Shown one piece after another: positions 12,893-17,103 of a DNA stretch of 34,924 bases. How positions within the stretch are numbered: position 1 is the first letter of the stretch; every line of letters starts with the position of its first letter. The translations under genes and the position numbers were made by a program. Under the pieces are notes generated by a model that saw only the letters and a list, made by a program, of their open reading frames with translations, searched no databases and was not told the origin of the DNA. Origin of the DNA: Aneurinibacillus thermoaerophilus (GTDB lineage: Bacteria; Bacillota; Bacilli; Aneurinibacillales; Aneurinibacillaceae); contig NZ_FNDE01000039.1 in assembly GCF_900099925.1 (NCBI RefSeq), forward strand, positions 1-34,924, in the 5' to 3' direction.

Positions 12893-13059
12893 TTTTCATC
12901 AAACTCCGATTTAATTAATTGGTTTAATGGGTATATTACTACGATATTATAAAATTTTCAAGATGAAACGCGCAGGGTGCTCTCTTTATTCAAATTTCTT
13001 CTCTCCTCTTCTCAAAAGCCACCTGAGTGACATCGTTCAAGGCTTGCCGATTAACCTCC

Positions 13060-13118
13060 AGAGTCAGAGAAGCGGCATTTCTCCCCCGCCTATAGAGGCA
13101 GGGGACTTTTGCCGTATT
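13060..13118. mobile_element. IS200/IS605-like end hairpin overlapping the GGDEF gene's stop
   Basis: Outer arms CGGCA (13073-13077) and TGCCG (13110-13114) enclose an inner stem CCCC-GCCT (13084-13091) / AGGC-a-GGGG (13096-13104) with one bulge. The plus-strand text AGAGAAGCGGCATTTCTCCC and minus-strand AAAAGTCCCCTGCC resemble the hairpin ends of IS200/IS605 elements, and the minus-strand AAGTCCCCT recalls the 4117 element. No transposase gene is attached. It may be a scar that now supplies the end of the GGDEF gene, or act as its terminator. Confidence 0.4.
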
Positions 13119-13761
13119 TGAGTTGAAATTTATAATGATACATATTCTGATCCGCCTTTTGAATTAATTCATCAAGACTTTTCCCGTCATCAGGATAAAC
13201 TGCGGAACCGACAGAAACAGAAAGATCAATCCCCCATTTTTTAGAAAGCGGATGAATATGATTACTAATTCGCTTTATCACCTTGTGGGATTCGATTTTT
13301 TCTGTACAGGGAATGAGAAGAACAAACTCATCGCCTCCCCACCTAACTACGACTTCTCCTTTCCCTTTTTTGCTAACTAATGAAGCACAAATACTTTTTA
13401 AAGTTAAATCACCATATTTATGTCCTTTTGTATCATTAATATCTTTAAAATTATCAACGTCTAAAAGAAACAGGTTTATCTTCTCCTGACTCCGCCTTGA
13501 CTTCTTTACCATTTTAGGAAAGATTTTATAAAGAAATCTTCTATTGTACGAGTTTGTTAGATAATCCTTTTCAGAAAAAAATTTGTACTCATCATACTTT
13601 TTACCCATATACCAAAAAATAACAAGTGAAAAATAAGTGACAAACATCACAAATATATCCATCTTTTTACTATGATTACCTATATAAAGGTAATAGATCC
13701 ATATAAGTGAATGAGCCAAAAATAAAAAAGACAAAAGTAATCTTCCAGTATATTGCTTCAA
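13090..13761 (-). CDS. Membrane diguanylate cyclase (GGDEF protein)
   Basis: 223 residues. Two membrane helices come first (about residues 8-27 and 35-53). The GGDEF domain then has LTNSYNRRFLYK, LFLLDVDNFKDINDTKGHKYGD (Mg-binding Asp and substrate Asn) and an intact active site VVVRWGGDEFVLLIP. It should make c-di-GMP from two GTP. The RxxD inhibitory I-site normally found five residues before GGDEF is absent (KGKGEVVVR), so no product feedback is expected. There is no sensor domain beyond the two helices. The start is TTG 13761 with AAAGGAGG 9 nt upstream. The last codons (KSPLPL, stop at 13090-13092) lie inside an IS200-like hairpin, so the C-terminus may be replaced. Very A/T-rich compared with the neighbouring core. 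Confidence 0.88.
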   Translation of the reverse strand: MKQYTGRLLLSFLFLAHSLIWIYYLYIGNHSKKMDIFVMFVTYFSLVIFWYMGKKYDEYKFFSEKDYLTNSYNRRFLYKIFPKMVKKSRRSQEKINLFLLDVDNFKDINDTKGHKYGDLTLKSICASLVSKKGKGEVVVRWGGDEFVLLIPCTEKIESHKVIKRISNHIHPLSKKWGIDLSVSVGSAVYPDDGKSLDELIQKADQNMYHYKFQLKYGKSPLPL

Positions 13762-13864
13762 ATCAAAATTCCTCCTTTATCATTCTGCTTTTATATACAT
13801 CTGACTTGATATTTCGACGTTTGCATGGTAGTCATCTGATTTTTATAGGACTGAGTCATTCTAT

Positions 13865-13895
13865 AAAAAACGCCAACTTTAGAAAACAGTTGGCG
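13865..13895 (-). terminator. Intrinsic terminator or attenuator in front of the GGDEF gene
   Basis: An 8-bp stem (CGCCAACT at 13871-13878 with AGTTGGCG at 13888-13895) is followed on the minus strand by TTTTTTAT. It lies about 105 nt upstream of the GGDEF start and between it and the invertible segment, so transcription leaving the recombinase gene toward GGDEF would meet it. A second small dyad (GTTCAT/ATGAAC at 13915-13928) precedes it. Confidence 0.6.
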
Positions 13896-13991
13896 CAACA
13901 GGACTTTTGGAGCTGTTCATAAATGAACTGTTTAATTTACACACTTTATTATTTAATTGAAAGAATATTAAGTTGATGAATGAATCAAGTT

Positions 13992-14022
13992 TAAAACAAA
14001 ATAGTCTTTTTGTTAGATTTTA
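13992..14022 (+). repeat. Left 31-bp inverted repeat of a putative invertible element
   Basis: The reverse complement begins TAAAATCTAACAAAAAGACT and matches 14764-14794 at 30 of 31 positions. The repeat is itself roughly dyad-symmetric (TAAAA...TTTTA at its ends), as expected for a tyrosine-recombinase core site. It lies 42 nt beyond the recombinase stop codon. Confidence 0.85.
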
Positions 14023-14064
14023 CAAAAAAACCCATACCTTATTAAAAAAAAATGAAATTAATGG

Positions 14065-14628
14065 TTACAAAGAGAATTCTTCCAAGGCTTTACTTACCAT
14101 TTCATCATTAATTCCAATGTATCGCAACGTAATCGAAGGACTGGAATGACCAAAAATATATTGTAACATTGCAACATCTTTCGTTTTTTGGTAAAAGTGG
14201 TAGCCAAATGTTTTTCTTAATGTATGAGTTCCGATGGGCCCTTCTACTCCGCAAGCTTTTGCTGCAGTATGTATAATTTGCCACGCTTGAATCCTGCTAA
14301 TAGGGCGCTCCCCTTTTTGCGAAGGAAAAAGATACTCTGAATCTGCCATTTTTCGCGTATATCTATCAATCTCCCTTCTCAACGTCTCATTTATAATCGT
14401 TTTTCTTATGTTTTTTGTTTTCTTCTCTTTGATAATTAAATAGTTGGTATATTTAACATCCATAACCCTAAGAGGTAGGATATCACTAATTCTTAAGCCT
14501 GAATTAATCCCAAAAGTGAATAGTAGATAATTCCTGTATGAGCGGTGTAAAAGATACTCTTTTATCTCCTTGATTTTTTCAATATCACGGATCGGTTCTA
14601 CTGTATTTGCTCCTTTTTTTACTGCCAT
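14065..14628 (-). CDS. Short tyrosine recombinase, FimB/FimE-like size, inside an inverted repeat
   Basis: 187 residues, consisting of the catalytic domain with almost no N-terminal core-binding domain. Catalytic residues are all present: Arg46 (SGLRISD), Lys near 69 (IIKEKKTK), His135 and Arg138 (GTHTLRKTFGYH), His161 (YIFGHSS) and the nucleophile Tyr170 (LRYIGIN). Small recombinases of this size (FimB, FimE, about 200 residues) invert promoter segments; other short Bacillales integrases have unknown roles. ATG 14628 is chosen because GGAG lies 8 nt upstream; the longer GTG 14637 start would sit on the ribosome site. The gene lies between 31-bp inverted repeats, with a GGDEF gene on one side and an EAL gene on the other. 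No attachment-site cargo is visible, which favours a switch over an integrated element. Confidence 0.88.
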   Translation of the reverse strand: MAVKKGANTVEPIRDIEKIKEIKEYLLHRSYRNYLLFTFGINSGLRISDILPLRVMDVKYTNYLIIKEKKTKNIRKTIINETLRREIDRYTRKMADSEYLFPSQKGERPISRIQAWQIIHTAAKACGVEGPIGTHTLRKTFGYHFYQKTKDVAMLQYIFGHSSPSITLRYIGINDEMVSKALEEFSL

Positions 14629-14763
14629 AAAAATCACTCCAGAATGTAAGATTTAATTTAATTTTTTATTCAATATGTTAAATTGTTCTTTTGGCTTTTA
14701 TTATCTAAAAAACGAACAAACCCTTTAAAATCAATCATTTAGCTTATCTCATTTTAAAGAATA

Positions 14764-14794
14764 TAAAATCTAACAAAAAGACTAATTTGTTTTA
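14764..14794 (+). repeat. Right 31-bp inverted repeat of the putative invertible element
   Basis: Partner of 13992-14022, with a single mismatch at position 22 of the repeat (A here, T in the other). It ends 52 nt before the EAL gene's start codon. Confidence 0.85.
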
Positions 14795-14819
14795 TATTTT
14801 GCTACGAATCAAATACTAT
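14791..14819 (+). promoter_or_regulatory. Candidate promoter of the EAL gene straddling the repeat edge
   Basis: TTTATA (14791-14796), a 17-nt spacer and TACTAT (14814-14819) form a plausible but weak sigma-A promoter. Four bases of the -35 lie in the inverted repeat and the rest outside, so the core promoter would survive inversion while its upstream context would change. Confidence 0.35.
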
Positions 14820-14846
14820 TTTTAGTAAAAAAGAAGCGGGGAACTT

Positions 14847-15569
14847 ATGGATAATATCAAATTTTCAGAAAAAGATTTAGATACGATTCTTTCAAAAAAA
14901 ATGTTTTATCATCTATACCAACCTCTTTATAATCTTTCCAATTGGAAAATATACGGTTATGAAGCTTTTTTTCGGACTGAACAAGTAAATAACCCTGAAC
15001 TTTTTTTTCTTTTGGCTAAAAAATATCAAAAATTATATGAACTAGATATATTATCTATTTTCCATGCAATAGCAACATATTGGAGAAAACGCAAAGGATT
15101 TGAGTCAAAGTTATTTATAAATATATTTCCATCAACCATAATCCATCCTGAATTCACCAGATTTCTAAACGAAGTAACGTCCATTTTCACATTTAAAACA
15201 AAAAATATCGTATTTGAAATTAATGAACAAGAAGAAATAACGGATTTTAGCCTTATAAAAAAAGCGATTTATTCGTTAAAAGAACAGGGCTTTCAAATCG
15301 CTCTTGACGATGTAGGAAAAGGATTTTATTCTCTGCGGCACCTTATAGAACTAGAACCGGATTTTATTAAATTAGACAAATACTTCTCCCATAACCTGTC
15401 GAATTGTGAAAAGAAACAAAACCTTATTAAATCTTTAATTGATTACTGTAACGAGGAAATCGTCTTAATATTAGAAGGGATCGAAAAAGCGGAGGACTTG
15501 GCCATCGCTAAGGTACTGCATGTACCAATAGTCCAGGGATATTTATTAGATAAACCTTCCATTTTATAA
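14847..15569 (+). CDS. EAL-domain c-di-GMP phosphodiesterase
   Basis: 240 residues, a stand-alone EAL domain with no membrane helix or sensor. The signature is YGYEAFFR (Glu39; EAL has become EAF). The other metal and catalytic residues are kept: Asn in FINIFPS, Glu in IVFEINE, the Asp pair in ALDDVGKGFYS, Lys in FIKLDKYF, Glu in ILEGIEKAED and Gln in PIVQGYLLDKP. It should therefore be able to cleave c-di-GMP to pGpG. The start ATG 14847 has AAGCGGGGA upstream. It faces away from the GGDEF gene across the recombinase element. A/T-rich like the rest of this island. Confidence 0.85.
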   Translation: MDNIKFSEKDLDTILSKKMFYHLYQPLYNLSNWKIYGYEAFFRTEQVNNPELFFLLAKKYQKLYELDILSIFHAIATYWRKRKGFESKLFINIFPSTIIHPEFTRFLNEVTSIFTFKTKNIVFEINEQEEITDFSLIKKAIYSLKEQGFQIALDDVGKGFYSLRHLIELEPDFIKLDKYFSHNLSNCEKKQNLIKSLIDYCNEEIVLILEGIEKAEDLAIAKVLHVPIVQGYLLDKPSIL

Positions 15570-15614
15570 CATTCTCTTATGATAAAAATGATGGACTTCC
15601 CTAACATTCTAAGA

Positions 15615-15656
15615 AAAAACACGGCCAAGCTCTCAATAAGCTTGGCCGTGTTTTTC
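15615..15656. terminator. Bidirectional terminator between the EAL gene and gatB
   Basis: A long perfect stem, ACACGGCCAAGCT with AGCTTGGCCGTGT (arms within 15619-15651), is flanked by A run and T run. It can end both the plus-strand EAL transcript and the minus-strand gatCAB transcript. Confidence 0.9.
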
Positions 15657-15663
15657 TACTCGA

Positions 15664-17103
15664 TTACATTTTTGCCAGCGCATCGCGCAGCAACTGGTTG
15701 ACAAGTCCAGGGTTCGCTTTGCCTTTCGATGCCTTCATTACCTGACCAACCAGCGCACCGATAGCTTTTTCTTTGCCGGCTTTGAAGTCTGCCACCGCCT
15801 GTGGGTTGTTGGCGATCACTTCATCCACCATCTGCTTAATCGCGCCTTCGTCACTAATTTGCACAAGACCTTGTTCTTCGACGATTTTCTCCGGATCTTT
15901 ACCGGTTTCCATCATTTCTCTGAACACTTTCTTCGCGATTTTCGTGCTAATCGTGCCTTTGTCAATCAGCTTAATCATTTGCCCCAGTTGCTCTGGAGTC
16001 ATTTTAATGTCTTTCATTTCGGCTTCATTGGCATTCAAATAACCGATGACTTCGCCCATTATCCAGTTGGATACAGCTTTGGCGTCTACCCCCGTTTTCA
16101 CGGCAGCGTCAAAGAAATCGGAAATGTCTTTAGACATTGTAATAACGCCAGCATCGTATTCCGGCAAGCTATATTCGGAAATATAACGGGCTTTGCGCGC
16201 ATCCGGCAATTCCGGAATGGTAGCGCGAATTTGTTCTACCCATTCGCGGCTAATTTTTAATTTAATTAAATCCGGATCCGGAAAATAACGATAGTCGTGC
16301 GCTTCTTCCTTACCGCGCATGGAAACGGTACGGCCTTTTGCCTCGTCCCAGCGGCGCGTCTCTTGTACAACTTCGCCGCCATCGCGCAAAATTTCGGCCT
16401 GACGCATTTCTTCATATTCCAAGCCGCGCTGCACATTGCGGAATGAGTTAACATTCTTTAGTTCAGTGCGGGTGCCAAACTCTTTTTGTCCAACCGGACG
16501 AAGGCTGATATTGGCATCACAGCGCAGCGAGCCTTCTTCCATTTTTACGTCGGAAACCTCGCAATACTGCATGATCGCCTTCAATTTCTCCAAGTATGCA
16601 CGCGCTTCTTCCGGTGAACGCAAGTCCGGCTCGGATACGATCTCGACAAGCGGCGTACCCACACGATTATAATCCACGAGAGAGGCATAGCCGCTTTCTG
16701 CGTGTACAAGTTTGCCCGCGTCCTCTTCCAAATGCAGACGAGTAATACCAATACGTTTCGTTTGTCCGTTTACTTCAATATCAATCCAGCCATTCTTGCC
16801 GATCGGCTGGTCATATTGTGAAATTTGATACGCTTTCGGCAAATCCGGATAGAAGTAGTTTTTACGATCGAATTTGCTTTCTTCGGAGATTTCACAGTTC
16901 AGCGCAAGCGCCGCTTTCATCGCGAATTCTACCGCTTTTTTGTTCAGAACCGGGAGAACACCCGGATGACCGAGACAAATCGGACATGTATGCGTGTTCG
17001 GCGGCGCTCCAAATTCAGTGGAACAGCCGCAGAAAATTTTCGACTTGGTTGATAACTCAACATGAACTTCAAGCCCGATGACCGTTTCAAATTCTTTCGC
17101 CAT
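15664..17103 (-). CDS. gatB: Asp/Glu-tRNA amidotransferase subunit B
   Basis: 479 residues, full length. It begins [20 protein letters not shown] and contains the zinc-site cysteines in [21 protein letters not shown] and the motif YFPDPDLIK. The C-terminal part is the GatB/YqeY tail domain ending [13 protein letters not shown]. GatB binds the misacylated Glu-tRNA(Gln) or Asp-tRNA(Asn), phosphorylates the carboxyl group and receives ammonia from GatA. It is the last gene of gatC-gatA-gatB, 16 nt after gatA. Confidence 0.97.

Follow-up and report, generated by a model that had tools for sequence, protein, structure and literature searches.

We analysed a 34,924-nucleotide stretch of Aneurinibacillus thermoaerophilus DNA (contig NZ_FNDE01000039.1 of assembly GCF_900099925.1; hereafter the window), in which a short gene for a tyrosine recombinase, enclosed by an inverted repeat, separates a gene for a GGDEF protein from a gene for an EAL protein, that is, a predicted cyclase from a predicted phosphodiesterase of cyclic diguanosine monophosphate (c-di-GMP). 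The features of this locus, numbered by position in the window, are the following.

13090-13761, minus strand: gene for the GGDEF protein (Pfam GGDEF, 1.6e-34)
13865-13895, minus strand: terminator-like hairpin and T run, by direct reading, separating the left repeat from the GGDEF gene
13992-14022, no strand: left inverted repeat, on the 3' side of the recombinase gene
13995-14014: left core site AACAAAA-TAGTCT-TTTTGTT, inside the left inverted repeat
14023-14064, minus strand: 3' spacer of the recombinase gene, where most relatives have a candidate outward promoter
14065-14637, minus strand: tyrosine recombinase, catalytic domain only, 190 amino acids as listed, frame intact
14669-14680, minus strand: TAACATATTGAA motif, starting 43 nucleotides (nt) upstream of the listed start of the recombinase open reading frame
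14764-14794, no strand: right inverted repeat, on the 5' side of the recombinase gene
14772-14791: right core site AACAAAA-AGACTA-ATTTGTT, inside the right inverted repeat, with one arm mismatch
14847-15569, plus strand: gene for the EAL protein (Pfam EAL, 1.7e-41)

The arms of the inverted repeat are 31 base pairs (bp) long, agree at 30 of 31 positions and bound a segment of 803 bp. The repeat is beyond chance: it scores 28, against a maximum of 16 among 300 first-order Markov shuffles of positions 12900-15700, in each of which we counted the best inverted repeat with arms more than 300 nt apart. Each repeat contains a 20-bp site with a 7-6-7 layout and the consensus AACAAAA-N6-TTTTGTT, and the spacer of the right site (AGACTA) is the reverse complement of that of the left site (TAGTCT); the sole mismatch between the arms falls in a binding arm and leaves the spacer unaffected. 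The conservation of these sites suggests that they are putative binding sites of the recombinase. Allowing up to two mismatches, we found no other pair of sites in the window's genome, and three further places that match the site lie isolated on other contigs.

The recombinase matches Pfam Phage_integrase (1e-26; 94.2 bits against a cut-off of 27.1), and its alignment to solved Xer proteins spans the catalytic region. Read by eye, it has the residues R-K-HxxR-H-Y, the catalytic motif of tyrosine recombinases. Alignment with relatives makes the ATG at 14628 the likelier start. The protein falls outside the FimB/FimE subfamily, with 51.1 and 44.8 bits to two NCBIfam invertase models whose cut-offs are 221 and 222. 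On one side of it, the GGDEF protein has an intact GGDEF motif and, by eye, a hydrophobic N-terminal stretch, and by its motif would qualify as a cyclase; on the other, the EAL protein has residues E39, N92, E124, D154, D155, K175, E210 and Q230, which do not vary among the seven aligned switch-linked EAL proteins, and since we take these to be the conserved metal-binding and catalytic positions, it would qualify as a phosphodiesterase. Its motif reads EAF and its loop DDVGKG, which is atypical, the usual forms in EAL domains being an EAL motif and a DDFGTG loop. A DD-x-GKG loop is common to all seven aligned proteins, and five of the seven have DDVGKG. Distances to the nearest repeat are 52 nt for the start of the EAL gene (right repeat) and 230 nt for that of the GGDEF gene (left repeat). 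A preliminary description, made from the letters of the window, had proposed a 31-bp inverted repeat enclosing only a short tyrosine recombinase with all catalytic residues, a GGDEF gene on the left facing left and, 52 nt from the right repeat, an EAL gene facing right; this layout was reproduced by the coordinates, the 30/31 identity, the far lower shuffle scores and the protein comparisons given above.

We next consider relatives of the recombinase. At E <= 1e-10, four of the seven genomes of the genus have a match, the window's own included; matches at E <= 1e-55 occur in six of 11 genomes of the family, and at E <= 1e-70 in ten of 398 genomes of the class. Relatives were gathered as 43 loci in named genomes, 17 in viral contigs and 16 plasmid records, of which four were analysed and the other 12 left out of the tree and the counts. 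Also left out were a duplicate (L011, of L073), interrupted frames or fragments (L023, L035, L046, L047 and L048) and two further fragments (L050 and L116). The repeat scan of relatives lacking a pair of sites (pairless relatives) covered L010-L049, L072, L074 and L075; viral and plasmid rows were scanned solely for core sites within 400 bp. An inverted pair surrounds the gene in eight of the ten class genomes, with no pair in G143 and G361, and the genus genomes G004, G005 and G006 lack a close recombinase. Altogether, the window and ten other loci in Bacilli have the paired arrangement, which we call an inverton. The families of G100 and G044 are represented by one genome each. These loci, with the adjoining genes as assigned by Pfam and phmmer, are as follows.

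Window: EAL, opposite GGDEF
L051 (genus, G003): EAL, opposite GGDEF
L052 (genus, G001): EAL
L053 (genus, G002): EAL, opposite GGDEF
L068 (G044): CheW
L069 (G044): PilZ
L070 (G100): EAL, opposite a 5TMR-LYT histidine kinase (L070:8100-9416)
L071 (G009): HD-GYP, split over several frames
L073 (G086): EAL, shortened
L008 (Paenibacillus oceani): HD-GYP
L009 (metagenome-assembled Bacillaceae genome): EAL

The 11 invertons span 803-867 bp, and within each pair the spacers match. Nine different spacers occur among the 11 loci, and where one genome has two paired places these carry different spacers (four of four such genomes: G001, G002, G009 and G044). The TAACATATTGAA motif is exact in eight of the 11 loci, and is perhaps an accessory half-site of the recombinase. 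Of the 68 recombinases in our tree, those of the 11 invertons group as a single clade (support 99/98), nested among 57 pairless relatives, some of them on small plasmids. The 400 bp preceding the gene contain a site with at most two mismatches in 23 of the 57 pairless relatives (a count made without a shuffle control); in 15 of the 57 it lies 125-185 bp upstream, the position of the 5' site of the invertons, and in the nearest pairless group eight of 11 have an upstream site. The simplest reading of this pattern would be that the gene gained a further copy of the site, in inverted sense, on its downstream side. The neighbours also set the invertons apart: all 11 inverton loci have a c-di-GMP or chemotaxis gene no more than 1.5 kb away, against none of the 57 pairless relatives.

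One 10-kb contig of Bacillus wudalianchiensis (L050:1632-2369) carries a pairless recombinase (L012) together with a small GGDEF protein that is 39% identical to the window's; it is a possible source of the pairing of recombinase and GGDEF gene. The opposite gene in L070 was at first read from its sequence as a GGDEF gene, a reading that Pfam overturned in favour of the 5TMR-LYT histidine kinase; the partner across the switch is therefore not always a cyclase.

The segments have a polarity of their own. An outward-directed TATAAT occurs on the 3' side of the recombinase in nine of 11 loci, against 2.3 expected from shuffles, and on the 5' side in three of 11, against 3.6 expected. Five of the 11 (L051, L053, L068, L069 and L009, but not the window) have TGTCGA-N19-TATAAT exactly, and at the same spacing the upstream element reads TATCGA in L052 and GGTCGC in L070. 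The composite of this promoter and the site has six matches, in four of the 398 class genomes, all at places already known, against none in a reversed control. With starts called mechanically, 11 of 15 flanking genes begin 20-67 nt from the repeat, which leaves little space for promoters outside the segment. Given the candidate outward promoter on the 3' side in nine of 11 loci, inversion should decide which neighbour is transcribed. A conserved terminator on the 5' side is not claimed for all loci: with the sites excluded, a script found one only in G003 and G001 and, weakly, in G044a. By eye, we also saw a 5'-side terminator in four single-site relatives.

In the window itself this arrangement is altered on the GGDEF side. 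The distance from the recombinase stop codon to the core site is 51 nt, against 74-153 nt in the other ten inverton loci, and by eye the 3' spacer has a degenerate -10 candidate, TTTAAT, at 14041-14046. The 61-nt stretch around the hairpin at 13865-13895 folds at -16.4 kcal/mol, although a terminator scan with a loop limit of 8 did not call it; the hairpin should block transcription leaving the segment toward the GGDEF gene. A search of positions 12900-15700 for a riboswitch or other known RNA between the switch and the GGDEF gene gave nothing near the gathering score. As the promoter is decayed and a terminator-like hairpin precedes the GGDEF gene, control of the EAL gene alone is likelier in the window than a two-way toggle.

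Three genomes of the genus (the window's, G003 and G002) carry the trio of GGDEF gene, switch and EAL gene, each at a different genomic place. In G001, G003 and G005, gatB and a cbiX-like gene adjoin one another as an empty site, so that the window's lineage appears to have acquired the trio by insertion; in G004 and G006 gatB has different neighbours, and the gatB stretch of G002 stops at a contig end and is uninformative. The switch lies beside acuABC-like genes in G003 and G001 and elsewhere in G002 (gene names by eye). In the trios of G003 and G002, both outer genes start 33-67 nt from the repeats. The EAL gene adjoins the 3' end of the recombinase in L051, L052, L053 and L009, and the 5' end in the window, L070 and L073. 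Compared with L051 and L053, the window thus has the same outer genes, with the segment reversed relative to the EAL gene, which we regard as probable evidence of inversion between species. Two of the checks proposed in the preliminary description, a search for the same trio elsewhere and a comparison of genomes for both orientations, therefore gave positive results, the second between related species.

We propose that the two 7-6-7 sites are the substrates of the recombinase encoded between them, which would recombine them and so invert the 0.8-kb segment that holds its own gene. As a rule, the segment would carry an outward promoter on its 3' side and none on its 5' side, such that the 3' neighbour would be on and the 5' neighbour silent until the segment flips. 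Since the neighbours are genes for c-di-GMP turnover, c-di-GMP receptors or chemotaxis, inversion should give rise to heritable subpopulations with different c-di-GMP levels or different motility. For the window, this model places the EAL gene on the silent 5' side, and the GGDEF gene on the promoter side, behind the terminator-like hairpin. The segment very probably serves as a heritable on/off switch, one derived from a plasmid-type recombinase. That it is a self-contained inversion switch, which in the window mainly turns the EAL gene on and off, we consider probable.

Several observations weigh against this interpretation. The 11 of 11 in the neighbour comparison was favoured by query proteins drawn from the inverton loci themselves, these loci share one ancestor and hence are not independent, and the 57 pairless rows include 13 with a flank shorter than 1.5 kb and four identical repeats (the 68 tree rows being 64 different sequences). 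The window's 3' spacer lacks TATAAT, as does that of L073, and the window's terminator-like hairpin precedes the GGDEF gene. The repeats of L069 have decayed to 25 of 29 identical positions, and this copy is possibly locked. L052 has no GGDEF gene beside the segment, and L008, L068, L069 and L071 have neither a GGDEF nor an EAL gene directly adjoining, so that the pairing of cyclase and phosphodiesterase is not general. The evidence from orientation comes from comparison between species.

The preliminary description had envisaged a switch that redirects transcription from the GGDEF gene to the EAL gene, such that one orientation would transcribe the former and the other the latter, giving lineages of high and low c-di-GMP. 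The self-encoded switch tied to c-di-GMP genes was supported by the trio and by the reversed segment in G003 and G002. A two-way toggle is nonetheless doubtful in the window, and we consider it rather unlikely. The trio is kept in all three genomes despite its differing place, and in G003 and G002 the closeness of both outer genes to the repeats means that both should depend on the segment; in the window, by contrast, the GGDEF gene is 230 nt away behind the hairpin and the outward promoter shared by the relatives is degenerate, and only three of 11 loci have a GGDEF gene opposite an EAL gene. The same shortened 3' spacer without TATAAT, and the separate terminator before the GGDEF gene, would also fit a switch in decay, in which the window's segment is still able to invert but, having lost its promoter, controls neither gene any more, and L069 shows that repeats can decay. 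Such decay is unlikely: the recombinase frame, the repeats, the spacers, the EAL frame and the close spacing are all intact, and a weak promoter read by eye (TTGTAA-N18-TTTAAT) may persist, as may transcription running on from the recombinase gene.

Two further explanations would deny that the segment is a switch. The repeats could mark the two ends of a very small transposon mobilised by its own recombinase, as the segment's several genomic places and the apparent insertion of the trio between the cbiX-like gene and gatB might suggest. The same element does occur at loci with no GGDEF or EAL gene directly beside it (L008, L068, L069 and L071), which the preliminary description had taken as the mark of a small transposon if those loci were unrelated; there, however, the element lies beside HD-GYP, CheW or PilZ genes, and copies at loci of no common function were not found, the neighbours at every inverton locus being of one functional class. 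Moreover, the repeats are laid out as 7-6-7 recombinase core sites, 15 of the 57 pairless relatives keep a single site at 125-185 bp upstream, and an EAL gene adjoins the element each time in the four genus genomes that carry it. On the evidence of the segment's neighbours and sites, we consider a mobile element very unlikely. Least probable of all is a remnant of a plasmid-type resolvase, with sites for dimer resolution or integration and not for switching. The pairless relatives do include recombinases of small plasmids, several with one upstream site, but recombination between inverted sites inverts DNA and does not resolve it, and the pair is confined to a clade with regulatory neighbours.

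Turning from these alternatives to the inversion switch itself, the promoter-like sequence suggests a possible link to Spo0A. TGTCGAA is given as the core of the 0A box, with G2, C4 and G5 contacted, in the available text of PMC3485338; TGTCGA matches six of the seven letters and keeps G2, C4 and G5, and TGTAGA loses C4. In the genus, TGTCGA-N19-TATAAT occurs in none of seven spoIIGA upstream stretches (220 bp before the mechanical start), and a looser TGTC[GA]T-N22-TATTTT in four of the seven. Because the exact spacing is absent from all seven, possible control of the switch promoter by Spo0A is kept as a lead only.

Elsewhere we observed paired sites without a recombinase. In G002, an inverton of about 260 bp (L059:12121-12383, G002:C162) precedes a second EAL gene and a gene for a methyl-accepting chemotaxis protein (MCP). 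The interior of this inverton looks, by eye, like the ends of the window's segment, as though a deletion had removed the recombinase gene, and L053 presumably supplies the recombinase that flips it in trans. In G001, a second (L076:6546-6909, G001:C171) has the gene for an SLH-domain protein on one side and, at a distance of 700 bp, an MCP gene on the other. Both contain TGTAGA-N19-TATAAT, now directed away from the right-hand gene, in L076 toward the MCP side. A single core site upstream of a CheW gene and an MCP-like gene (L077:7278-7297, G002:C117), whose flanks resemble L059 by eye, is perhaps a collapsed switch. In G009:C26, matched inverted sites surround a run of N near a Spo0E-like gene (L078:6454-7208); the run may reflect a gap in the assembly of a segment that flips. 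The second G044 copy (L069:7114-7951), beside its PilZ gene, with repeats alike at 25/29, is perhaps locked.

As a tentative extension, for which we claim no more than a modest chance, these elements may form a portable cassette. A plasmid-type recombinase would have been domesticated once into a self-flipping two-way promoter that answers a starvation or sporulation regulator through its 0A-box-like promoter, and would have been placed before decision genes (EAL, GGDEF, HD-GYP, PilZ, CheW and the 5TMR-LYT kinase, and near a Spo0E-like gene) across Bacilli. The locus-specific 6-bp spacers would keep the switches separate, and recombinase-less satellites would be driven in trans.

The switch family itself appears to be new: among the open-licence papers listed, judged by titles and abstract openings, we found no description of it, and the available part of PMC11892184 held no match. 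If our interpretation is correct, a plasmid-type recombinase becomes a regulatory switch by the gain of one inverted site, giving Bacilli compact switches, open to testing, through which motile or sessile subpopulations may be set. With the recombinase, the sites and the promoter all within about 0.85 kb, the cassette could be tested with a reporter.

Closest at hand for comparison are the plasmid recombinases of Bacillus badius pPM8 and Priestia megaterium punamed16, which are 71% and 64% identical to the window's. They carry one similar site, at -152 and -160, respectively, with two mismatches each, and a TAACATATTGAA-like motif with one mismatch, but have no inverted partner site whose spacer matches, and in the 1.5 kb around either recombinase gene no c-di-GMP or chemotaxis gene was found (one pPM8 flank being short). 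The window's recombinase resembles FimB/FimE-type invertases in being a short, catalytic-domain-only tyrosine recombinase with weak NCBIfam matches, and differs in scoring far below the family cut-offs; the fim recombinases are encoded outside their invertible segment. Hin of Salmonella is a serine recombinase acting on the flagellin switch. Like the window's enzyme, it is encoded within its invertible segment, the H segment (PMC5903667, in the text available), so that a recombinase riding inside its own switch is not new in principle; the window's enzyme is an unrelated tyrosine recombinase and lies beside c-di-GMP genes. The likeness in function is to Clostridioides difficile pdcB and pdcC (Cdi2 and Cdi3), c-di-GMP phosphodiesterase genes made phase-variable by the orientation of invertible segments between inverted repeats, according to the available portions of PMC9286219 and PMC5903667. 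In C. difficile, a single gene lies downstream of the segment, and according to PMC9286219 the recombinase responsible for the pdcB switch had not been identified; in the window, by contrast, the segment contains the recombinase gene and is flanked by genes at both ends.

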